Virus record (IMG/VR): IMGVR_UViG_3300026484_000422
Location: 1-26,545 of that record
DNA from: a virus
Strand: one strand, 5' to 3'
DNA: 26,545 nt
Below are positions 1-13,474 of this stretch, piece after piece; the first letter of the stretch is position 1, and every line of letters starts with the position of its first letter. Below the pieces are notes generated by a model that worked only from the letters and a program-made list of their open reading frames with translations, was not told the origin of the DNA and ran no database searches. A program made the position numbers and the translations under genes.

Positions 1-588
1 GAGATTTTGCCTGCTTTAGGTATAGCTGTGGTTCAAATTTCAGAGCAAGAGGCTGATGATATTATCTATTGGCTTACTACTAGGTTTTATCAAGGTAAGT
101 CAACAGTCCATACTGATGATGAGGATTACCTACAATTATTACAATGGAATGTTAAAGTTCACAGGCCTATGAAAGGAGAGTACTACGAATCTGAACAAGA
201 TTTTATAGACAAATATGGTTACCATTCTAAATACCTAGCTTTAAAGAAAGCTCTAATGGGAGACTCTTCAGACAACATTCCTGGAGTTAGAGGGATAGGA
301 GACAAGAGAGCTACCCAGATTGTTAAGGAGATGTTTAAGCTAAACCTAGAACCTGAAATTCCTAACTTGGAGAGTTTAGTTAAACAGAGGAAGGAAACTT
401 GGGCTAGGAAGGTATTAGATAATCTAGATATAGTAGAAAGAAATCTAAAGCTGATTGACTTTAGGTATGTTGACTTAGCTGATGTTAACATTCAGTTAGA
501 CTTCACTAAGAAAGATTTAATGTTAGCTACTAGGTTATTTGGTAAGTATGGGTTTAAGAGTTTGTTATCCAAGTTAGTGGAGGTATAG
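1..588 (+). CDS. 5'-3' exonuclease / flap endonuclease, N-terminus cut by window edge
   Basis: The reading frame is open from base 1, so the gene starts upstream of the window; a TTG at 7 is only an internal codon. The visible part begins in the metal-binding core, with the E-A-D-D motif of 5'-3' exonucleases about 15 residues in. Later comes D-S-S-D-N-I-P-G-V-R-G-I-G, the acidic metal ligands followed by the helix-hairpin-helix (H3TH) DNA-binding loop. Family role: removes RNA primers and 5' flaps during replication. It complements the polymerase at 2650-6363, which has no 5'-3' exonuclease domain of its own. The stop codon TAG directly abuts the ATG of the next gene, indicating one operon. 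Identity is secure; whether it belongs to the T5/T7-type exonucleases or the PolA N-terminal type cannot be decided from the fragment. Confidence 0.92.
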   Translation, partial: EILPALGIAVVQISEQEADDIIYWLTTRFYQGKSTVHTDDEDYLQLLQWNVKVHRPMKGEYYESEQDFIDKYGYHSKYLALKKALMGDSSDNIPGVRGIGDKRATQIVKEMFKLNLEPEIPNLESLVKQRKETWARKVLDNLDIVERNLKLIDFRYVDLADVNIQLDFTKKDLMLATRLFGKYGFKSLLSKLVEV

Positions 589-1038
589 ATGGAACTAATA
601 AGAGAGTTGTTAGATTTATTAGACCAGTTAGAAGAAGCTAATCAGATTAAAAAGCAAACTCAAGGTTTATGGGATCAGATACTAAGCCATATGGTTAAGT
701 TATACCTCTTTGAGAAAGATGACGATAAGAGAAAACACATCAAGGATATTACAGTTTGGGCTAAAGACATTTTGAGAAAACTTAAGAGGAGTAGCTCTAA
801 CATTTCTTATGGTAAACTGTACGATTGGTATGATTTAGATAGAATTGAAGAAAACATTAGAGATGAAATTCTCTACTGGAAGTCTGAGTATCTTTCTGAA
901 CCAGTTAGAAGTGATGAAGAGGTTATTGACATTGTTAAGACTAAAATGATGAAGTTGTTAAGATGCCTAAGCGATAAAAGTTTAAACTGTGTTCTTGATT
1001 GGAGAGACCAGATAAAAGATGATTTGAAAGTTTGGTAA
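589..1038 (+). CDS. Hypothetical protein, helical, acidic/basic
   Basis: A 149-residue protein whose ATG follows the stop of the flap endonuclease with no gap, so it is translationally coupled to it. It is charged and probably all-helical, with many Leu, Lys, Glu and Trp (for example W-D-Q-I-L near residue 30 and a D-W-Y-D-L segment in the middle). There is no signal peptide, membrane segment or catalytic motif. The general pattern, a helical N-terminus, a Leu/His stretch and then a W-x3-I-L-x-K-L segment, faintly recalls DUF29-type proteins, but that is only an impression. Its position between flap endonuclease and helicase suggests a replication-associated role, by inference only. Confidence 0.75.
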   Translation: MELIRELLDLLDQLEEANQIKKQTQGLWDQILSHMVKLYLFEKDDDKRKHIKDITVWAKDILRKLKRSSSNISYGKLYDWYDLDRIEENIRDEILYWKSEYLSEPVRSDEEVIDIVKTKMMKLLRCLSDKSLNCVLDWRDQIKDDLKVW

Positions 1039-1063
1039 ATAACAATTAACAAAGAGGTTCAGG

Positions 1064-2356
1064 ATGAGTGAGAAACCCAAGCTTTATTCAAAGGAATTCC
1101 AATTTCAGGTTCTTTGTGCTTTAGTACAAGACCCTCTCTTTAGGTTAGACTTTTTAATGCTCTTAAGTCAAGAGATGTTTGAACCTCCTTACAACTTGTT
1201 CTTCCAAGTCCTTCAGAGTTTATCTCCTGGTGAGAACTTTCAACCTAAGCAATATCTGTTAGAGATAACCAATTACTTAGTTCAGGTTGGATTAGATGAT
1301 GAAAAGCAGAGAGAAATCATTTTAGAAGCTAAAAGGCTTTTTAAAGAGTCTGTAGATGTTTCCTATGTAAAGGAAAGAGTAATCTACTTCCTTAAAGAGG
1401 TAGAAGTAAAGAGCTTTCTATCCGAGATTCCAAGATTGGTTATGGAGGGTAAAGTAGGTTTTGTATTAGAAAAATTTGAATATATAAGTAGTATAGGAGC
1501 CTCTACTAGTAATGCTGTTAGCTTAGGAGACTTGGATTTAGTTAGAGAGGAGCTAATAAAAAGGTACTCTCCTAGTGTATTAGTTTCAACAGGATTCCCT
1601 ACCTTAGATAACATTTTCTATGGAGGATTTGCTCCAGGAGAAATACATGTAGTTCAAGCTCCTCCTAAAGCTGGTAAATCTGCTTTAGGAGTTAATGTAG
1701 GAGCTATTAATGTTTTGTTAGGAAAGAAAGTTTTGCATGTTACTTTAGAGTTAACTCACTATGAAGTACTTATGAGGTATGTTCAAAGAATAGCTAGTAT
1801 TAGCTATACAGATATACTTAAAATGGAAGAAGATGAATGGAACTTACTAAAAGAAAGGATTTATAATCAAGTTTTGAAAGATTATCTCTTTGTGCTCTAC
1901 TATCCTGAGAAGTCTGCTTCAGCTATGGAAATTCACAGTTGGTTAACTAGGCAAAAGGTAGTAAGGGAATGGAAACCTGATTTCATAATTATAGACTACG
2001 ACGATTGTTTACTACCTTCAACTGGTAGTAAAGATAGCTTATATGAAGACTCAGGAGATATTTACTCAGACTTAATCAAATTAGCTGTAAAGTGGGATGT
2101 TCCCATCCTAACTTTTTCTCAACCAGTAAGAGATGCTTGGAGTAAACCTGATAAAGGAGAACCAATAGAACCTAACGACCTTGCACATTCAGCAAGGAAG
2201 GCTCACAGAAGTTGGAGTATTAGTTCACTGAACTTTAAAACAGGTTCTGAAGAAGGTTTCTTCTATCTTGGGTTTAACAGGAGAGGTAAGAGTGGAGTAA
2301 GAATTCCACTAAAAAGGAAGCTAGAAATTATGTATATGGGGGAGATACAATCGTAA
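1064..2356 (+). CDS. DnaB-type replicative helicase
   Basis: A 430-residue protein with DnaB layout: a helical N-terminal domain (about 1-150), a linker, then a RecA-fold ATPase opened by S-T-G-F-P-T-L-D-N (about 175). The Walker A is A-P-P-K-A-G-K-S at 199-206, with Ala in place of the usual first Gly. Walker B is F-I-I-I-D-Y at 307-312. The segment around F-S-Q-P-V-R-D and the final N-R-R-G-K-S-G match the DnaB H4 and arginine-finger/loop region. Such helicases unwind duplex DNA as hexamers ahead of the replisome. It starts at ATG 1064 behind an AGAGG at 1053-1057. Neighbours are a flap endonuclease and a polymerase, so this is a phage replication operon. No primase or helicase loader is visible; they may lie upstream. 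A Sak4-like recombinase is less likely because of the N-terminal domain. Confidence 0.85.
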   Translation: MSEKPKLYSKEFQFQVLCALVQDPLFRLDFLMLLSQEMFEPPYNLFFQVLQSLSPGENFQPKQYLLEITNYLVQVGLDDEKQREIILEAKRLFKESVDVSYVKERVIYFLKEVEVKSFLSEIPRLVMEGKVGFVLEKFEYISSIGASTSNAVSLGDLDLVREELIKRYSPSVLVSTGFPTLDNIFYGGFAPGEIHVVQAPPKAGKSALGVNVGAINVLLGKKVLHVTLELTHYEVLMRYVQRIASISYTDILKMEEDEWNLLKERIYNQVLKDYLFVLYYPEKSASAMEIHSWLTRQKVVREWKPDFIIIDYDDCLLPSTGSKDSLYEDSGDIYSDLIKLAVKWDVPILTFSQPVRDAWSKPDKGEPIEPNDLAHSARKAHRSWSISSLNFKTGSEEGFFYLGFNRRGKSGVRIPLKRKLEIMYMGEIQS

Positions 2357-2371
2357 AGAAGGAGGATAATA

Positions 2372-2635
2372 ATGGTTAAGTATATTCAAGTAATTCCTAC
2401 TGAAAAACTACTTTCAGCTATTATGCAAGGATACAGAACTATTACTGGAAATCCTCTAGTAATAGCTAAGTATTTCTCTAACATTGAAGTTTGGATTACT
2501 AATTCCTTGAAGGAAGGGTTGAAAGAGGTTGAAATTAATTTACCTCTTAATGAGAAGTGGAAGTTTGGTATGTATAATGACAAAAAGTTTTATGTTAAGA
2601 ATGATGAAAAGAACTATTTAGTTGAACTTAAGTAG
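2372..2635 (+). CDS. Hypothetical small protein
   Basis: An 87-residue protein with a strong ribosome binding site (AAGGAGG just upstream of ATG 2372), sitting between the helicase and the polymerase with short gaps. It has a hydrophobic/basic N-terminal helix followed by a probable beta-rich C-terminal half (K-F-G-M-Y-N-D-K-K-F-Y-V-K-N). No recognised motif, no membrane segment and no cysteines. Codon usage matches the surrounding replication genes. Function unknown; co-transcription with replisome genes is the only hint. Confidence 0.75.
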   Translation: MVKYIQVIPTEKLLSAIMQGYRTITGNPLVIAKYFSNIEVWITNSLKEGLKEVEINLPLNEKWKFGMYNDKKFYVKNDEKNYLVELK

Positions 2636-2649
2636 AGTGAGGGGGCGAA

Positions 2650-5600
2650 ATGAACTCCAGATGTGAAATCTGTAAACTTTATAAGCAATGCAAGACTCAC
2701 TTTGTTAAGCCCAGAGGTAATTTAGAAAATCCTAATATTATAATAGTAGGAGAAGCCCCTGGGTGTGTTTCTGGAGACACATTAATAGAAGTTGCTTTTA
2801 GGGATGTATCCAAATATCCAAAAGGAATACCTATAAGAGAGTTAGTGGGGAAGAAGGACTTTTATGTCTATTCTTATGATATTGAAAAAGATAGACTGGT
2901 TCTTGGGAAAGTTAAGAAGGTATGGAAGACTGGAACGAAAATGACTTACAAGGTTACTTATAAGTGGAAAGCTGCTACTCAAGACGGTGAGGTGAAATGG
3001 TTTGAAGATTCTATTATTGTAACTTCTAATCATAAGTTCTTACTTAAAAAAGCTAAACCAAAAGATCCGTTTAAAGGTATTAATACAAATGTGGAATATG
3101 AATACCTTTCTATTGATGAAGGGTTAACCGTAGGACATAGTATAATGCCATTCTACAGACGCTTTTATAGTGAAAGAGATAAGCGATACACTTTTATAGG
3201 TGTATCACATGACACTATGCAACCAGAACATAAGTTCTTAATGGAGTTTTTAACTGGAAAAGATTTAGGAGGAAGAAAGTATAATGTCCATCATAAAGAT
3301 GGAAATGGTTTGAATAATACTTTGGAAAATCTTGAAGTTCTTACTGTAGCTGAACATGCAAGGATTCACAAGTTAGAATCTAACCCTATGCACGACCCTG
3401 TTGTAAGAGAAAAACATAGGCAAGTTCTTTCTTCCAAAGAGTATAGGGAAAATATGAGTAGAATTATGAAAGAAAAGTTGAGGTCAGATAAAGAATTATA
3501 TGAAAGAAGAGTAAAGCAACTTTTAGAAGCAGGTAAGAAAACAAGATTTAAGAAAGGTGAACTTGATCCTGTTAATTACTATAAAAGACTTCTTTCTTAT
3601 GTGAGAAAAGGTAAGAGAACTCTAGAATGGGTAGAAGAGAGATTCAAATCTAAGTTTCCAGATTTACCATTTCCACCCATAGATAACCATATTATTGTTT
3701 CTATTGAACCTTATGGAGTGATAGATGTTTACGATATGGAAGTAGAAAAGTATCATAATTTTGTAGCTAATGGAATTATTATTCATAATTCCACTGAAGA
3801 TAAGCAAGGGAAACCTTTTGTAGGTAAATCAGGTAAATTATTAGAAGAAGTATTTAGGCTCTTCAATAAGAAATTTGAAGAAGTTTGCTACATAACTAAT
3901 GTAGTTAAGTGTTGTCCTTATGCAGACCTTTTTAATCCTAGTAAAGGAGTTAGGCCTCCTACTGATAAGGAAATAGAATGTTGCCTTCCTTTTCTGTTAG
4001 AAGAACTAGAAAAGTTTAAGGGTAAAGATGTCGTTATAATGCCTTTAGGTAATACTGCTTTGAAAGGATTAGGTATAAAAGGTAAGATTTCTGAGTTAGC
4101 TGGTAAAGAACTAAAGTGGAATGGGTTTAAGGTTATTCCTAACTTTCATCCTGCTTCTATTTTAAGGAACCCTAAGTGGAAGCAAAAGTTTATATCAGTA
4201 TTTGGTAAAGTACTAGACAATAGGCAAGTGGAGTGGGAGAATTTAATTAAACCTTTACAACCTAAAGAAGCTATCAACTTTTTACAGAAGAAACTTGAGG
4301 AGAAACCTGAATGGTTTTGTTTTGATATAGAAACAGATGGACTTAATCCATTTAAAAATAGAATAATTATGCTTACTTTTTCATTTCCAAATGACCCTTA
4401 TGGTTATGTAGTTCCTTTATATCAAAAAGACCCTTTACCAGGAGATAATTATGATGTTTTTAATGTTGTAGTAGATAATATTTCTAAGCAAAAGGTATTA
4501 CAACTTACAAAACAGTTATTAGAAACTATTCCTGTTATTGGGCATAACATTAAATTTGATTTAAAATTTATGGTAACTAAAACAGGTTTGGATTTATCCA
4601 AAGTTAAAGTAAAAGACGACACATTATTTTTAGCTCATTTTGTATTTAACAAGGTTCAACTTGGAGAGACTTTACAACTTAAAGACATAGCTGTTAAGGT
4701 ATTAGGTTTAGATGGTAGATGGGATGAAGAAGTTAAGGAATATTTAAAGTCAAGGTATCGTCTAAGGAAAGATAGACATTATGGAAATATTCCAACTTCT
4801 TTACTAATTAAGTATGCTGGATTTGATATTCTCTTTACTAAAGAGATTTATTTAGTGCTTTCTGAGAGAGTTAAAGTATTTAACTGTGACGAGATTAGGG
4901 AAGCTCTTAATAAGGCTACAATTATGATAGCTGAATCTGAAATAAAAGGAGTTAAGGTAGATAAACAAGTTAGAGATTTTCTTGACTATAAATATCAGTC
5001 TGAAATAGAAAGAGCTGAAAAAGAGTTACAGGAATTACCTAAAATTAAGAAATGGAAAGAACTAAGAAAAGTATCTTGGTTTAATCCTTCTTCTCAAAAA
5101 CATCAAAAGGAGGTAGCATTTAAAGTCTACCAATTACCTGTAGTAGAAACAACTCAAAAAGGACAGCCTTCTTTAGGTAAGAATGCTATTAACATATATT
5201 TCTCCTCTCTTCCAGAAGGTTCAGAAGAAAAACGATTTATAGAATTGTTTTACAGAATAAAACTTTTCAAAAAATTAAAGTCAACCTACATAGATGGATT
5301 TATAAGTAGTATAGACGACCTAGGGATGTATCATCCTGAATTCAACATAGCAGGAACAATAACAGGTAGATGGTCATCAGGATGGCATACTGTTGCATCA
5401 AAGTCCGACATTAAGAGAATGTTTGTTAGTAGGTGGAAAGATAAAGGAGGACTTATAGTTAGCTTTGATTATTCTCAGTTAGAGGTTAGAATTGCCTCAA
5501 GTCTTTCCAATGAAACTAAACTCATAGAAGCTTATAAGCAAGGGATAGATGTTCATAAAAGAACTGCTTCTATGATATTTAATAAGCCTATGGAAGAGAT

Positions 5601-6363
5601 TACTAAGCAAGAGAGGAAGATTGCTAAAACTGTTGTGTTTGGAATTCTTTATGGTAAAACAGCTAAGTCCTTAGCTGAGGATTTTAACATTAGCTTAGAG
5701 GAAGCTCAGCAATGGATGGATAATCTATTTGGAGGTTACTCCAATCTTAGAAAGTGGATAGAGAATCAGCACAGGTTTGTTTTACAAAATGGTTTTGTTG
5801 TAACAGCATTCAATAGAATTATTCCAGTTCCAATGGCTTTTGAATCTGATAAGTGGAAGAAAGAGGAAGCTAAGCGTAAAGCTGTTAACTATCCTGTTCA
5901 ATCCTCAGCTTCTGATTTAACTACTACAAGTGCAGTTAGACTTTGGGAGAATATGAAAAAATTAAATCTGAAGTCTGTTCTTATAGGAACTGTTCACGAT
6001 GCTATTGTTATAGATGTTTACCTTGGAGAGTTAATTACAGTTTTTAACCTTGTGATTAAAAATGCTGAAATAATACCTATGAAAAAATATGAGTGGTTAA
6101 CTTGTCCTATTAGGATAGATGCTACTATGGGAGATGGAAGCTGGTTTGGAGGAATAGAATGGGAAAGAAAAGTAGTTACTCCAGATTACCTTGAATTAGA
6201 AGGAACAGGATTTGTAAGAGATTTACTGATGTTTAAACAGTTAATGGAAATGAGTTATAATTTTGAATATGAAAAGATAGGTGAAGAAGAATTTAATGAA
6301 CCCAGTCTTGATCAGTTTATTTACTCCCCTAAGAAAGAAGTATGGAGGGTTAAAATTTGGTAG
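2650..6363 (+). CDS. Uracil-DNA glycosylase–DNA polymerase I fusion with in-frame intein
   Basis: A precursor of 1237 residues, 895 after splicing. Residues 1-38 plus 381 to about 520 form a family 4 (Fe-S) uracil-DNA glycosylase: C5 and C8, then K-C421 and I-x-x-C445 as likely 4Fe-4S ligands, motif 1 G-E-A-P-G joined after splicing to S-T-E-D-K-Q-G-K-P-F-V-G, and motif 2 N-F-H500-P-A-S. Residues from about 550 to 730 are a 3'-5' proofreading exonuclease (D559-x-E561, H-N-x-x-F-D, Y722-x3-D726). The rest is a family A polymerase: motif A F939-D940-Y-S-Q-L-E; motif B R989-x3-K993-x3-F997-G-x2-Y1001; motif C V-H1116-D1117. Phe at the position of E. coli F762 predicts discrimination against dideoxynucleotides. 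There is no 5'-3' nuclease domain; that activity is the separate gene at 1-588. Glycosylase-like N-termini on phage PolA enzymes are known from SPO1-like phages. A GGGGG-rich RBS precedes the ATG. Confidence 0.95.
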   Translation: MNSRCEICKLYKQCKTHFVKPRGNLENPNIIIVGEAPGCVSGDTLIEVAFRDVSKYPKGIPIRELVGKKDFYVYSYDIEKDRLVLGKVKKVWKTGTKMTYKVTYKWKAATQDGEVKWFEDSIIVTSNHKFLLKKAKPKDPFKGINTNVEYEYLSIDEGLTVGHSIMPFYRRFYSERDKRYTFIGVSHDTMQPEHKFLMEFLTGKDLGGRKYNVHHKDGNGLNNTLENLEVLTVAEHARIHKLESNPMHDPVVREKHRQVLSSKEYRENMSRIMKEKLRSDKELYERRVKQLLEAGKKTRFKKGELDPVNYYKRLLSYVRKGKRTLEWVEERFKSKFPDLPFPPIDNHIIVSIEPYGVIDVYDMEVEKYHNFVANGIIIHNSTEDKQGKPFVGKSGKLLEEVFRLFNKKFEEVCYITNVVKCCPYADLFNPSKGVRPPTDKEIECCLPFLLEELEKFKGKDVVIMPLGNTALKGLGIKGKISELAGKELKWNGFKVIPNFHPASILRNPKWKQKFISVFGKVLDNRQVEWENLIKPLQPKEAINFLQKKLEEKPEWFCFDIETDGLNPFKNRIIMLTFSFPNDPYGYVVPLYQKDPLPGDNYDVFNVVVDNISKQKVLQLTKQLLETIPVIGHNIKFDLKFMVTKTGLDLSKVKVKDDTLFLAHFVFNKVQLGETLQLKDIAVKVLGLDGRWDEEVKEYLKSRYRLRKDRHYGNIPTSLLIKYAGFDILFTKEIYLVLSERVKVFNCDEIREALNKATIMIAESEIKGVKVDKQVRDFLDYKYQSEIERAEKELQELPKIKKWKELRKVSWFNPSSQKHQKEVAFKVYQLPVVETTQKGQPSLGKNAINIYFSSLPEGSEEKRFIELFYRIKLFKKLKSTYIDGFISSIDDLGMYHPEFNIAGTITGRWSSGWHTVASKSDIKRMFVSRWKDKGGLIVSFDYSQLEVRIASSLSNETKLIEAYKQGIDVHKRTASMIFNKPMEEITKQERKIAKTVVFGILYGKTAKSLAEDFNISLEEAQQWMDNLFGGYSNLRKWIENQHRFVLQNGFVVTAFNRIIPVPMAFESDKWKKEEAKRKAVNYPVQSSASDLTTTSAVRLWENMKKLNLKSVLIGTVHDAIVIDVYLGELITVFNLVIKNAEIIPMKKYEWLTCPIRIDATMGDGSWFGGIEWERKVVTPDYLELEGTGFVRDLLMFKQLMEMSYNFEYEKIGEEEFNEPSLDQFIYSPKKEVWRVKIW
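2764..3789 (+). mobile_element. Intein with HNH homing endonuclease inside the glycosylase motif
   Basis: 342 residues (precursor 39-380). Block A starts at C39 (C-V-S-G-D-T-L). Block B is T125-S-N-H128. The C-terminus reads Y-D-M-E-V-E-K-Y-H-N-F-V-A-N-G then I-I-I-H-N, followed by Ser as the first C-extein residue. An HNH-type endonuclease core (H214-H215-K-D-G-N ... L-N-N-T-L-E-N-L ... H236-A-R-I-H240) sits between the splicing halves, followed by N-P-M-H-D-P and a basic helical stretch of the kind found as DNA-binding NUMOD-like modules. All splicing residues expected of a class 1 intein (Cys1, B-block Thr/His, terminal His-Asn, +1 Ser) are present, so it should be splicing-competent. Insertion splits G-E-A-P-G from S-T-E-D, an active-site motif. 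Confidence 0.95.
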
Positions 6364-6387
6364 TAGGTAGGAAATTTACCTACTTTG
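6362..6387 (+). terminator. Weak hairpin terminator after the polymerase gene
   Basis: AGTAGGTA at 6362-6369 pairs perfectly with TACCTACT at 6377-6384 across a 7-nt loop, and only a short T-run follows. It overlaps the polymerase stop codon at 6361-6363. The stem is AT-rich, so termination is probably partial; it separates the replication operon from the sigma-like gene. Confidence 0.4.
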
Positions 6388-6399
6388 TAAGAAAACCAC

Positions 6400-6427
6400 T
6401 TGCCTTCTCTTGAAAAAGGCCTATAAT
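6400..6427 (+). promoter_or_regulatory. Sigma-70-type promoter for the sigma-like gene
   Basis: TTGCCT (6400-6405), a 16-bp spacer, then TATAAT (6422-6427). The expected start near 6434 lies about 30 nt before the ATG at 6464, leaving a short leader with a GGGAGGAG ribosome binding site. It sits in a 100-bp gap directly behind the hairpin that follows the polymerase gene. Confidence 0.55.
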
Positions 6428-6463
6428 TATAGATAAGGAAACAAAACTGGTCAGGGAGGAGAG

Positions 6464-7114
6464 ATGAGAAAGGTAGAAAGGTTTGAAAACTCAGAGTTAA
6501 ACTCACTCCAAGCAATTATCTACAAATTCTTACAGAGGAAACCTGAAAACTTAGACTTTGATGAACTTTATCAGGAACTTTTCCTTAAAGGGTTAGAGTT
6601 ATTAAAAGACCCAAAAGTTCAAACTCTTAATGAGACTGAGAAGTGGAAGTATATCAAAACTGCTTTACATAACCACATAAAAGACCTTTTAAATGCTCAA
6701 CCTAAAGAAGTACCTCTTTCAGAAGTAGTAGAACCTGAAAGTCAACTTTCCTTTATAGAACAAGTATTATCGCCCTATACTAATGTTAGCAAGTCTCCAA
6801 TTCCAGTGGTTAAATTTATTAATCCAGAAACCTATGCTATTGGTAAGGAATTGATTGATAAAATAATGGCTTGGGCTGAAACTCAAGATGAAGGGACAAG
6901 AATTTTCTTTGAAGAGTATTTTAATCCAAGTCCTGAAGTGTTAGAGTATATGGAAAAACAAACTAATAAGGGAACTTGGAAAAATAGGAAGTTTGAACCT
7001 CTATTCTTAGCAAAGGTGTTAACTGAAATAGGTAAGTGGAAGTATAAAGATGGTAGAGATAAGTGGTTGAAAATAAAAAGAAAAATGATTAGGGATTTAG
7101 GGTTGGCTTTTTAG
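6464..7114 (+). CDS. Sigma-70-like transcription factor (region 2-like)
   Basis: A 216-residue protein. Residues of about 15-85 resemble sigma region 2: L-D-F-D-E-L-Y-Q-E-L-F-L-K-G-L-E-L-L, then K-W-K-Y-I-K-T-A-L-H-N-H-I-K-D-L-L-N, which parallels the D-D-L-x-Q-E-x-F and W-x-x-x-I-A-x-N-x-x-x-D-L-x-R patterns. A Pro-rich linker follows, then a helical C-terminal domain ending in a very basic W-L-K-I-K-R-K-M-I-R segment that could serve as region 4. Phages use such factors to redirect host RNA polymerase to middle or late promoters. The gene has its own promoter (6400-6427) and a strong terminator overlapping its stop, so it is probably monocistronic and separately timed. Region 4 similarity is weak; another helical DNA-binding protein cannot be excluded. 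Confidence 0.5.
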   Translation: MRKVERFENSELNSLQAIIYKFLQRKPENLDFDELYQELFLKGLELLKDPKVQTLNETEKWKYIKTALHNHIKDLLNAQPKEVPLSEVVEPESQLSFIEQVLSPYTNVSKSPIPVVKFINPETYAIGKELIDKIMAWAETQDEGTRIFFEEYFNPSPEVLEYMEKQTNKGTWKNRKFEPLFLAKVLTEIGKWKYKDGRDKWLKIKRKMIRDLGLAF

Positions 7115-7130
7115 CCAACCCTAAATTTTT
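7096..7130 (+). terminator. Strong intrinsic terminator overlapping the sigma-like stop codon
   Basis: A 13-bp perfect stem (7096-7108 with 7113-7125), a TTTT loop and five Ts after it. The TAG stop (7112-7114) lies at the loop and 3' arm base, so the last codons of the gene form the 5' arm. Confidence 0.88.
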
Positions 7131-7164
7131 CAGTATTTCTTATTTTTCTAGAAGGAGGTTTAAA

Positions 7165-8124
7165 ATGAAAATTCTTTATTACTCTGATATTCATTTTAGG
7201 GAAAAAGGGTCATTTATTCCTTGGAACAGGCAAGAGAATCGCTTCACAAAGGAGTTAAATCGTATCTTAAATTCAATGTACTGGTTATCAGAGATTGTAG
7301 AGGTTGAAAAACCTGATTTATTACTTTGCTTAGGAGATATATTCAACAATTTGGTAATCCAATCATCCCCTACACTTGATGCTTCTGGTTTAGCGTTTTC
7401 TCAGCTAAAAGAAACTTGTAAACGATTGGGAGTTGAACATTGGCTTATTCCAGGAAATCATGATTACTATGGTAAGTATAACAACGCTATCTATTCTATT
7501 AGAGTGTTGGAAGGATTTTTTGATAGAGTTTTCTATGAACCTGTTTATGAGGATAATACTTTATACTTACCTTACTTTACAGATGAAGCTAAAGCTTATG
7601 AGGAAATCCTATTAAGGGAACCTAAGAAAGTTATAACTCACTTAGCTTTTAATGGAGCTGATGTAGGTAAGATTAGAATACAAGGGTTAACTCTACCTAG
7701 AGGAGTTAAGGCTATTTCCGGTCATGTTCACATTCCTCAAGAAACGCCTGAATTTCTCTATGTAGGAAGTTTAGTTCAATTGAATTGGGTAGAAGGGACT
7801 AAGCATGGTGTTTATATAGAAGAAAATGGAAAGTTTAGATTTATCCAAAATCCGGTAGGTAAGCAAATCGTTAAGATTAGTAGGTTGGAGGAAATAGATA
7901 AGTATGATAAGGATAATACTGGATTCATTTTAGAAACTTCTCAACTTCCAGACAAATTACCTAATGGAGTGGACATTCAAGTTAAGTTAGTGAAACAAGA
8001 TATTAAAGAAATTCCAGTTGAATATGAGTTAGATAGCTTCCAATCTCCTATTGAGTTATTGGAAAATGAAATTAAGGAACTTTATCCTGATAAAGTTAGG
8101 ATATTGAAAGAACTTCTTAGATAA
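7165..8124 (+). CDS. sbcD: SbcD/Mre11-type DNA repair exonuclease (T4 gp47-like)
   Basis: A 319-residue metallophosphoesterase with every metal-binding motif of the Mre11/SbcD family in order: D8-x-H10, G57-D58, G97-N98-H99-D100, H159 and G186-H187-x-H189. After the catalytic domain (about 1-215) comes a short beta-rich cap and C-terminal tail (about 220-319) like that of phage enzymes such as T4 gp47. With SbcC it forms an ATP-regulated nuclease that opens hairpins and processes DNA ends in phage recombination. It starts at ATG 7165 behind AGAAGGAGG. Its partner is at 9425, but an island of about 1.3 kb separates them, which is unusual because the pair is normally adjacent. Confidence 0.92.
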   Translation: MKILYYSDIHFREKGSFIPWNRQENRFTKELNRILNSMYWLSEIVEVEKPDLLLCLGDIFNNLVIQSSPTLDASGLAFSQLKETCKRLGVEHWLIPGNHDYYGKYNNAIYSIRVLEGFFDRVFYEPVYEDNTLYLPYFTDEAKAYEEILLREPKKVITHLAFNGADVGKIRIQGLTLPRGVKAISGHVHIPQETPEFLYVGSLVQLNWVEGTKHGVYIEENGKFRFIQNPVGKQIVKISRLEEIDKYDKDNTGFILETSQLPDKLPNGVDIQVKLVKQDIKEIPVEYELDSFQSPIELLENEIKELYPDKVRILKELLR

Positions 8125-11044: not shown

Positions 11045-11671
11045 ATGAGTTGGAAAGACATATTTCCTCAAGAGAATAGATATTTTGAGACTGAAAATGG
11101 GATTCTCTATTGTGGAGATGCAAGCGAAATATTACAACAGTTACCTGATGAAAGTATTGATTTAGTATTAACAGACCCTCCTTACCCTAGGAAGTATCAA
11201 TATACTTATAACTACCTTGCTGATTATTGTCCAAAATTAATGAAAGATGGAACATCATTATTAATGATTGTAGGTCATTATGCCTTACCTGATATTATAA
11301 AAATTTTTGATGGAAAGCTGAAATATAGGTGGTGTTTTTGTATGAATCAGGAGGATGGTAAGCATTCAAGAATGGCTATGGGAATAGAAGTTGTGTGGAA
11401 ACCTGTTTTATGGTATGTAAAAAGAGCCTATCCTAATGGTAGAGGTTTTATAAAAGATATGTTGAAAATTACAAAACCTGATGGCATTAAAAAAGAATAC
11501 CATAAATGGCAACAAAGCGAACAATGGGCGGAGTTCTTTATTTCTAAGTTGACTTTCAGTAATCAGGATATTGTATTAGACCCTTATTTTGGAGCTGGGA
11601 CGGTTGGAGTAGCTTGTGAAAAGTTAAATAGGAGATGGATAGGAATAGAAATTGATAGGAATAGAAATTAA
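11045..11671 (+). CDS. DNA amino-methyltransferase (N4/N6), C-terminus frameshifted
   Basis: A 208-residue SAM-dependent DNA methyltransferase. Catalytic motif IV D44-P-P-Y47 precedes the SAM-binding D179-P-Y-F-G-A-G185-T, the circularly permuted (beta-class) order. It methylates the exocyclic amine of adenine or cytosine, and as an orphan phage enzyme it probably protects phage DNA from host restriction. No endonuclease partner is seen. The frame ends G-I-E-I-D-R-N-R-N because a 16-bp sequence is duplicated at 11638-11669. With one copy the frame would continue I-E-I-N-E-K-Y-C-E-I-A-K-K-R-I, the normal family ending, to a stop at 11721-11723 (220 residues). Seventeen residues are thus replaced by five; the last helix is lost but motifs I and IV are intact. 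The RBS is weak (AAAGGGG). Confidence 0.88.
   Translation: MSWKDIFPQENRYFETENGILYCGDASEILQQLPDESIDLVLTDPPYPRKYQYTYNYLADYCPKLMKDGTSLLMIVGHYALPDIIKIFDGKLKYRWCFCMNQEDGKHSRMAMGIEVVWKPVLWYVKRAYPNGRGFIKDMLKITKPDGIKKEYHKWQQSEQWAEFFISKLTFSNQDIVLDPYFGAGTVGVACEKLNRRWIGIEIDRNRN
11638..11669 (+). repeat. 16-bp perfect tandem duplication in the methyltransferase gene
   Basis: GATAGGAATAGAAATT occurs twice head to tail (11638-11653 and 11654-11669). Sixteen is not a multiple of three, so the second copy shifts the frame and ends the protein 50 bp early. Deleting one copy restores a canonical methyltransferase C-terminus. Confidence 0.97.
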
Positions 11672-12718: not shown

Positions 12719-13474
12719 ATGGAACTGAAGTATACCGAACCTGTAAGTGGTAAGGAAAGAATTATTAAGTTAGTTGATATCAACTTGGTAGAACCTTCTC
12801 CCTTACAAAGGGAAATTAGTGAAAAACATATTGATAACTTAGTTAAATCAATGACTAAGCTAGGTTTCCTAGACCCACTTATTGGATATGAGAACAATGG
12901 TAAATATTGGATCGTTAATGGTCAACATAGACTAATGGCTTTAAAGAAGTTAGGAGTTGGTGGAGAAATACCTGTTTTGATAATTCCATTTGAAGATACT
13001 AAGTACATCCTTGATATGAACACTGAGAAAGCTCCTAATGTTAAAGATAAGTCAATAGAAGCTTTAAAGGTCTATAAAGAGTTTATCAAAACTGTACCTA
13101 ATGAAACTGAATTTATAGTGGAAGACACTATTGGAGAAATGTGTCTAGTAACCTTTGGACTGTGCTACGCTATGGATAGTCGCTTCCCAGCTTCTACTTT
13201 TTACAACTTAATTAAGAAAATTGATAAAGCTGAAAATGTTCATCTTTCAGAAGGATTAGCTCTAAGACAAGAAAGAGCTAATAAGTTAATGGAACTCAGG
13301 GAGATTTTCAACCAAAAAAGGCAAGAGTTTATTGAAGCTGGTTATGATAAATATCAGGTAGGTAATATTGTTATTAGTTTATCCAATCCTTGGGGAAGGA
13401 AGAGACTAATAGAGGAGAGTTTTGATGAAGGGATTGATATGATTATTGAAAAGATGAAAAGTCTTACTCCTTAG
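12719..13474 (+). CDS. ParB/sulfiredoxin-fold domain protein
   Basis: 251 residues. An N-terminal ParB/Srx-like domain (about 10-100) shows I-N-L-V-E-P-S-P-L-Q-R-E, then I-D-N-L-V-K-S-M-x-x-x-G-F-L-D-P-L, and the hallmark V-N-G-Q-H-R-L-M-A-L-K-K-L-G. In this family that segment binds a nucleotide (CTP or ATP) and DNA. The C-terminal part (about 130-250) is helical and does not resemble the KorB/Spo0J helix-turn-helix clearly. No ParA partner is visible. Possible roles are phage-plasmid partition, DNA-modification adaptor or transcription factor; the choice is open. AGGAGGGTTAGG precedes ATG 12719, with a small CCTC/GAGG stem over part of that RBS. Confidence 0.75.
   Translation: MELKYTEPVSGKERIIKLVDINLVEPSPLQREISEKHIDNLVKSMTKLGFLDPLIGYENNGKYWIVNGQHRLMALKKLGVGGEIPVLIIPFEDTKYILDMNTEKAPNVKDKSIEALKVYKEFIKTVPNETEFIVEDTIGEMCLVTFGLCYAMDSRFPASTFYNLIKKIDKAENVHLSEGLALRQERANKLMELREIFNQKRQEFIEAGYDKYQVGNIVISLSNPWGRKRLIEESFDEGIDMIIEKMKSLTP

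Follow-up and report, generated by a model that had tools for sequence, protein, structure and literature searches.

A candidate homing intein at motif 1 of uracil-DNA glycosylase domains in viral polymerase fusion genes

Motif 1 of a uracil-DNA glycosylase (UDG) domain is interrupted by an in-frame intein in the window, that is, the whole stretch of 26,545 nucleotides of viral DNA analysed here (IMG/VR record IMGVR_UViG_3300026484_000422), and the identical UDG junction carries an intein in ten distinct viral contigs, window included. Very probably, these inteins belong to a mobile HNH class 1 lineage that is specialised on UDG motif 1 and moves horizontally across polymerase fusions. In other words, the simplest reading is that of an intein that homes to the UDG module, whichever polymerase family it is fused to, and imports a serine at the position following the intein (+1). 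This reading draws on the anatomy of the gene, the conserved residues of the inteins, the existence of uninterrupted alleles, the single clade formed by inteins of scattered hosts and the bias towards serine at +1.

The intein and its host gene

A single open frame of 1237 aa, at positions 2650-6363, encodes a UDG-exonuclease-PolA fusion with the in-frame intein. Specifically, the following features were assigned:

2650-6363, plus strand: UDG-exonuclease-PolA fusion gene with in-frame intein (open reading frame; Pfam and NCBIfam domains)
2650-2763, plus strand: N-extein of 38 codons, which holds the first UDG cysteines (C5, C8) and motif 1 up to GEAPG (translation; uninterrupted homologue L003 against solved UDGs)
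2764-3789, plus strand: intein of 342 aa, assigned to class 1 by Cys1 and a terminal His-Asn, the next residue (+1) being Ser (sequence, Pfam/NCBIfam and conserved residues; predicted Hint-type fold)
3277-3369, plus strand: predicted HNH endonuclease core, intein residues 172-202, with H176, H177, N189, H198 and H202 (HNH_3 match at residues 172-200; all five residues unchanged across the nine full inteins)
3688-3789, plus strand: C-terminal splicing segment, from intein residue 309 to 342 (TIGR01443 match over 321-342; conserved VYDMEVEKYHNF...HN)
3790-4185, plus strand: remaining UDG domain (C-extein), with STEDKQGKPFVG and the HPAS motif (PF03167 at residues 382-512)
4276-4872, plus strand: 3'-5' exonuclease domain (PF01612 at residues 543-741)
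5014-6135, plus strand: DNA polymerase family A domain (PF00476 at residues 789-1162)

The insert corresponds to residues 39-380 of the frame, starting with the Cys codon at 2764 and closing with an Asn codon whose last base is 3789, and its termini read CVSGDT...NGIIIHN; motif 1 is thereby split between an N-extein ending in IIIVGEAPG and a C-extein beginning with STEDKQGKPFVG. A preliminary description of this DNA had placed the intein at 2764-3789, within motif 1 of a UDG-exonuclease-PolA fusion and with exonuclease and polymerase entirely within the C-extein; the translation and the Pfam positions agree with it, to the base. Over the whole frame, Pfam returned Intein_splicing (3.3e-12), HNH_3 (1.3e-6), UDG (3.4e-23), DNA_pol_A_exo1 (6.1e-10) and DNA_pol_A (6.5e-72), all passing the curated cut-offs. 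The NCBIfam model intein_Cterm likewise passed its cut-off (1e-8), and intein_Nterm was marginal, with 24.3 bits for the whole frame against a cut-off of 24.5 and 26.2 bits for the intein alone. A chance match or a misframe was considered and rejected, because the domains share one frame and colinear uninterrupted alleles were found. The composition of the intein gives no sign of recent foreign origin, its GC content being 32.5%, against 32.2% in the C-extein and 32.1% in the window (third-position GC 23.7% in the intein and 22.7% in the C-extein). Elsewhere in the window, a DNA methyltransferase-like gene (11045-11671) and a ParB-like gene (12719-13474) lie downstream of SbcC/SbcD-like genes.

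As for the interrupted domain, the family model TIGR00758 (UDG_fam4) matches the interrupted frame at 3.7e-27 and misses its cut-off (95 against 125 bits), whereas the superfamily cut-off of PF03167 is passed, and for this reason the domain is labelled here as a family-4-type UDG. The family-4 motifs GE[AG]PGxxED..G and HP[AS] are present in the window sequence. Moreover, the uninterrupted relative L003 aligns with the solved family-4 UDG 1ui0 (1.5e-25) over both motifs, an alignment that puts the junction between GEGPG and EEED, counted as residues 40-44 and 45-48 of the solved protein, whose residues 41 and 47 we take to line the active site. The UDG-domain cysteines, presumably ligands of a predicted 4Fe-4S cluster, are present as judged by eye. 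Uracil excision is the predicted activity of this domain.

The splicing residues and the HNH core had been described beforehand as apparently intact, and comparison bears this out: in an alignment of nine full inteins, window included, Cys1, the block B residues T87 and H90, D324, H341 and N342 are invariant, as are the HNH residues H176, H177, N189, H198 and H202, the sole exception among the splicing residues being the block F His331, which is replaced by Ser in L040. The histidines originally numbered H214, H215, H236 and H240 correspond to H176, H177, H198 and H202 of the intein. The class 1 assignment follows from the N-terminal Cys, the block B T..H, the C-terminal His-Asn and the +1 Ser, together with an in-frame position in a conserved extein that has uninterrupted homologues (L002-L005). 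The HNH_3 model exceeds the Pfam cut-off in just two of the nine full inteins (window and L023), falls below it in L006, L008, L022 and L040, and gives no match at E 0.001 in L007, L030 and L043, so that the endonuclease call in these other inteins relies on the conserved residues. On the same ground, the intein would be competent both for splicing and for DNA cleavage. The only cysteine of the window intein is Cys1, which excludes an intra-intein disulphide and leaves the N-extein cysteines C5, C8 and C14.

The predicted model of the intein has a mean pLDDT of 82, with values below 50 at residues 257-262. Its best solved matches are DnaB mini-inteins, which also come first in the sequence profile search; the structures ranked just below them in the fold comparison include RecA mini-inteins and PI-PfuI, an intein that bears an endonuclease. 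The DnaB-type mini-inteins (Ssp DnaB, 1mi8/6frg; Npu DnaB, 4o1r) are alike in splicing fold and termini; they differ in extein and site, and their solved chains count 142-169 residues, against 342 plus an HNH motif in the present case.

One junction in ten viral contigs

A protein search detected inteins at the same junction in L006, L007 and L008, 49-52% identical to that of the window. A DNA pattern, GE[AS]PG-Cys, in which no intein residue was fixed past the first four and the +1 position was left free, returned 29 stretches: twenty hold short or unrelated frames and nine hold UDG inteins, that is, three in contigs already known, L030 and L044 (which encode the same protein), L022, L023, L040 and L043. 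A profile search added, among the best 80 of 189 relatives, L058, which ends at a contig edge. Finally, the C-terminal pattern HN-[CST]-x-E-D-x-x-G-x-x-F-V-G gave seven stretches, all from viruses of the set and covering six of the ten contigs; L006, L007, L008 and L022 do not match it. In the alignment, the other eight full inteins are 45-50% identical to the window intein. The context was read for 37 viral and 8 genome loci, and UDG C-exteins were compared with the best 80 of 189 viral loci. A further contig, 3300026382_000175 (L001), equals the window over bases 1-7368, intein included, and then diverges; the two are counted as one contig. The divergence is sharp, at window position 7369 inside an SbcD-like gene, perhaps a recombination edge.

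The host genes are of three kinds. UDG-exonuclease-PolA fusions are found in the window, L007, L030 and L058 (Pfam; L058 by local profile alone). UDG-exonuclease fusions are found in L022, whose frame counts 746 residues from stop to stop and 416 without the intein, and in L043, which is cut by the contig end and whose exonuclease is assigned by local profile alone. DnaE (Pol III alpha)-UDG fusions occur in L006, L008 and L023 by Pfam; L040 is cut, and its DnaE part is deduced from the match of its first 150 residues to the DnaE-UDG protein L273 (37%, 2.6e-27). The UDG module is N-terminal in the PolA fusions and C-terminal in the Pol III alpha fusions. Accordingly, the common host is the UDG module and not any one polymerase. 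The preliminary description had set this insertion against phage inteins in polymerase motifs, a contrast that holds in part, as a PolA motif (of the R|SS..PN.QNIP type) is indeed the insertion site of 15 of the 37 viral relatives read. Distant intein relatives in this motif are found in L069, L078, L081, L083, L084, L089, L090, L093, L107, L111, L120 and L123, with a UDG match upstream in nine of these twelve loci.

Comparison of related phages for an uninterrupted allele had also been proposed, and such alleles are present: four related contigs (L002-L005) have the gene without the intein. L002, L003 and L005 are colinear with the window and lack exactly the 1026 nt of the intein; once this is removed, the gene measures 2688 nt in all four, with 2427 (90.3%), 2475 (92.1%) and 2428 (90.3%) bases identical to the window, respectively. 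L004 is more distant (2029/2679, 75.7%). In these uninterrupted relatives the +1 residue is Arg or Lys, never Ser. Moreover, the first 30 bases 3' of the junction match between the window and L002, L003 and L005 at 21 of 30 positions, a dip that suggests co-conversion of the flank, although other 30-base bins are equally low or lower.

The +1 residue is Ser in all ten UDG inteins, encoded by TCN codons in two and by AGY codons in eight. By contrast, among the matches listed, Ser occupies that position in 2 of 116 insert-free viral UDGs, in which Glu, Ala, Lys and Arg dominate; the bias has a p of 3.4e-13, a value that ignores kinship. Among the first 80 rows of the same sample, Ser is found in 2 of 76 insert-free UDGs. 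The sample comes from a GEAPGxxED scan (at least 120 rows, four of them dropped as non-UDG by profile), and two of its 116 members (L231 and L232) carry inteins at other UDG sites. None of the searches that found the inteins required a serine: the protein search and the GE[AS]PG-Cys pattern were free at +1, the C-terminal pattern admitted Thr or Cys as well, and the profile, which included the flank, used scan patterns inside the intein. The presence of two Ser codon families would point to selection on the residue itself, as the splicing nucleophile, and argues for inteins that splice. If so, invasion would leave the active-site loop of the UDG with a Ser.

Proposed transfer between UDG genes and competing explanations

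According to the proposed mechanism, the intein would be a mobile one of class 1, equipped with an HNH homing endonuclease; it would have as its target the DNA for motif 1 of family-4-type UDG domains, and would be transferred horizontally between viruses regardless of the polymerase fused to the UDG. The intein would be translated inside the UDG domain and would exit by means of Cys1, His341-Asn342 and Ser +1, after which the GEAPG-STED loop would be restored uninterrupted. The HNH domain, for its part, would cleave uninterrupted UDG genes, and repair would copy the intein and, at minimum, the +1 codon into the cut gene.

The ten UDG inteins form a single clade (100/100) with respect to four outgroup inteins hosted by glycosyltransferases. 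In the intein tree, PolA- and DnaE-hosted rows are interleaved, with moderate branch support. Monophyly of the four DnaE-hosted inteins, a group named before tree building, is rejected (p-AU 0.0066), and so is that of the inteins of L006, L023 and L040 (p-AU 0.027, or 0.017 once the outgroup and the partial row are removed), a trio whose UDGs form a starred clade and which was chosen after viewing both trees. On the UDG trees, the nine intein-bearing rows need nine state changes, at 83 rows, where the L007 row retains a second intein and has a long branch, as well as at 122 rows, where L007 is without it; the larger tree was built by a quick method, and its short contig-end rows are labelled "alone", labels that were not used in the change count. 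In the 122-row tree, seven of the nine intein-bearing UDGs group, with 87-99% support, with insert-free UDGs, most or all of which have the same architecture: L006, L023 and L040 with the DnaE-UDGs L224, L237, L273, L301 and L308 (96), L022 (93) and L043 (87) each with UDG-exonuclease proteins, the window (99) with L002-L004, and L007 (91) in a group of 11 that are mainly PolA or exonuclease fusions. The placement of L030 and L008 is not firm, L008 standing apart from the other DnaE-UDGs. Starred inner branches are few (17 of 116 in the larger UDG tree, 1 of 11 in the intein tree), and with trees this weak individual donors are not singled out. The overall pattern looks like repeated horizontal arrival at one junction, and some UDG domains may have travelled together with their intein.

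Joint travel as the general rule, with UDG domain and intein shuffling as one unit between polymerase genes and no homing into resident UDGs, appears highly improbable. The position of the UDG at opposite ends of PolA and DnaE fusions does imply that UDG modules have moved, and the placement of the L008 UDG outside the other DnaE-UDGs is in keeping with it; yet the UDGs of L006, L023 and L040 lie beside insert-free DnaE-UDGs and that of L022 beside insert-free UDG-exonuclease proteins, at the supports given above, with inteins that do not follow them. Vertical descent from one ancient invasion, followed by many losses, would need more than nine changes on the UDG tree and requires congruent trees, contrary to the AU tests. 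It is extremely improbable, even considering that clean losses are traceless and that the 45-50% identity of the other eight full inteins to that of the window indicates an old lineage.

The preliminary description had suggested a regulatory role: the UDG would remain unformed until splicing occurs, exonuclease and polymerase could form, and splicing could time uracil recognition by the replicase. The anatomy of the window gene, in which motif 1 is split and both other domains sit in the C-extein, lends itself to such a conditional switch, and so does the finding that all ten intein-bearing UDGs are in polymerase or exonuclease fusions, as compared with 62 of 103 classifiable insert-free viral UDGs among the matches listed, the other 41 being standalone (one-sided p 0.0086, or 0.010 without the short frames L279 and L310; p ignores kinship). 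In this count near-duplicates were kept, thirteen unclear rows were left out and L279 and L310 were taken as standalone, while the ten fused cases include L040, by its L273 match, and L043 and L058, by local profiles; among the first 80 rows, 43 of 68 insert-free UDGs are in fusions. The kinship among rows and the small number make the enrichment weak, and confinement of the intein to fused UDGs is suggestive; alternatively, inteins may last best in genes that the virus cannot lose. Against a switch, the nearest relatives of the window gene have no intein, the distribution on intein and UDG trees is of the mobile-element type, the window intein is cysteine-free apart from Cys1, and the DnaE-UDG hosts have their polymerase in the N-extein, so that the window layout is not valid for all hosts. 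The support for splicing as a uracil-recognition switch comes from anatomy, mobility suffices for the pattern, and a switch is very unlikely. A broader proposal, that of a lineage adapted to a domain niche, which follows the UDG across PolA and Pol III alpha, resides in fused UDGs only, turns +1 into Ser and causes a splicing delay that some viruses may exploit, is speculative and judged unlikely. In giant viruses, an intein endonuclease has been proposed to harm co-infecting competitors that lack the insert (PMC5871332), and by analogy a similar effect is conceivable for the UDG inteins.

Known systems and reach of the searches

In general, inteins are catalogued by gene and site. Here, one lineage occupies one junction in genes with unrelated polymerase parts, since these have a fused repair domain in common; its host range, spanning polymerase families, is unusual. 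A partial parallel is offered by the mycobacteriophage TerL inteins which, according to PMC5050341, are located near functional motifs of the terminase and were tested for splicing, with cleavage of the partner phages' uninterrupted gene tested for two; horizontal transfer was inferred there for another extein. They are likewise phage-borne and near motifs of the host protein, the host being a terminase in that case and a UDG module in unrelated polymerase genes in the present one. Both kinds of host fusion are known without inteins (PMC7412058 for PolA, PMC3919608 for DnaE). In particular, the DNA polymerase I of phage PaBG is described with a UDG domain in PMC7412058, and PaBG and SPO1-like phages share the UDG-PolA domain combination of the window. 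In the sole SPO1-like relative examined, Lysinibacillus phage LysYB1, the gene has no insert and its motif 1 is degenerate. In bacterial DnaE-UDG fusions, the UDG domain stands in place of the OB and C-terminal domains of Pol III alpha (PMC3919608), a layout that L006, L008 and L023 seem to share; the analysis in that source removed inteins beforehand, and its accessible text does not mention a UDG intein. The glycosyltransferase-hosted HNH inteins L009-L012 are among the nearest intein relatives (29-33% by BLAST, 34-37% in the alignment); they have a different extein, named by eye, and fall outside the UDG-intein clade.

Among isolates, a tblastn search of 50,697 phage records with the window intein (E 1e-5) gave no match, nor was one found in 72,556 plasmid records. 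The L008 intein (tblastn, E 0.01) matched ten phage records, none spanning 80% of the query; judging by the flanks that were read, the one of highest coverage, an uncultured phage record of 735 kb, does not have its match in a UDG. The L030 intein gave one weak match (25%, 1e-6), between its middle part and a gene of Stenotrophomonas phage SOVA965 (PP079418.1:38427-38885) that is annotated as an HNH homing endonuclease and may be related to the endonuclease part of the intein. In cellular genomes (one per species), comparison of UDG C-exteins revealed no UDG-hosted intein among the best 80 of 97 intein relatives: in L136, L138 and L144 a UDG match over most of the domain lies on the opposite strand and is separated from the intein match by at least about 2.5 kb, and the weak matches in L133, L134, L149, L175 and L193 derive from the L007 query, which contained its second intein.

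No UDG intein is reported in the literature searched, with InBase and supplementary files outside that search, nor in the accessible text of PMC7886860, PMC7412058, PMC2147016, PMC7776575, PMC5050341, PMC9957025, PMC3919608, PMC3326045, PMC5871332 and PMC11208441. The insertion point had been put forward as possibly novel: the occupation of the same site in nine other viral contigs means that the window intein is not unique, while the site itself is undescribed in the literature searched. As far as checked, insertion of an HNH intein at UDG motif 1 is new. The site offers a natural test bed for homing across gene families, and suggests that an intein can impose a residue (Ser +1) on the active-site loop of its host enzyme.

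With regard to annotation, UDG genes from metagenomes can conceal inteins at this junction and at three or more further sites of the domain. In L007, the UDG domain already bearing the motif-1 intein contains another, different one of 318 aa (4880-5833); it precedes a CC pair (IEIE|C...HN|CCRSR), probably later UDG cysteines. The UDG-PolA fusion of L231 has a 275-aa intein (3188-4012, minus strand), with a LAGLIDADG look by eye, at another UDG site, ten residues past the motif-1 junction (EDAQGKPF|C...HN|CGDSG). In L232, a 348-aa intein that also looks LAGLIDADG-like by eye (3898-4941, minus strand) is placed before the cysteine of an NxVxC-RP stretch, in a UDG with no polymerase domain detected. 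Finally, L014 contains a single frame of 1872 aa (3-5618), by eye perhaps a portal protein, with several related inteins that have HNH-like parts.
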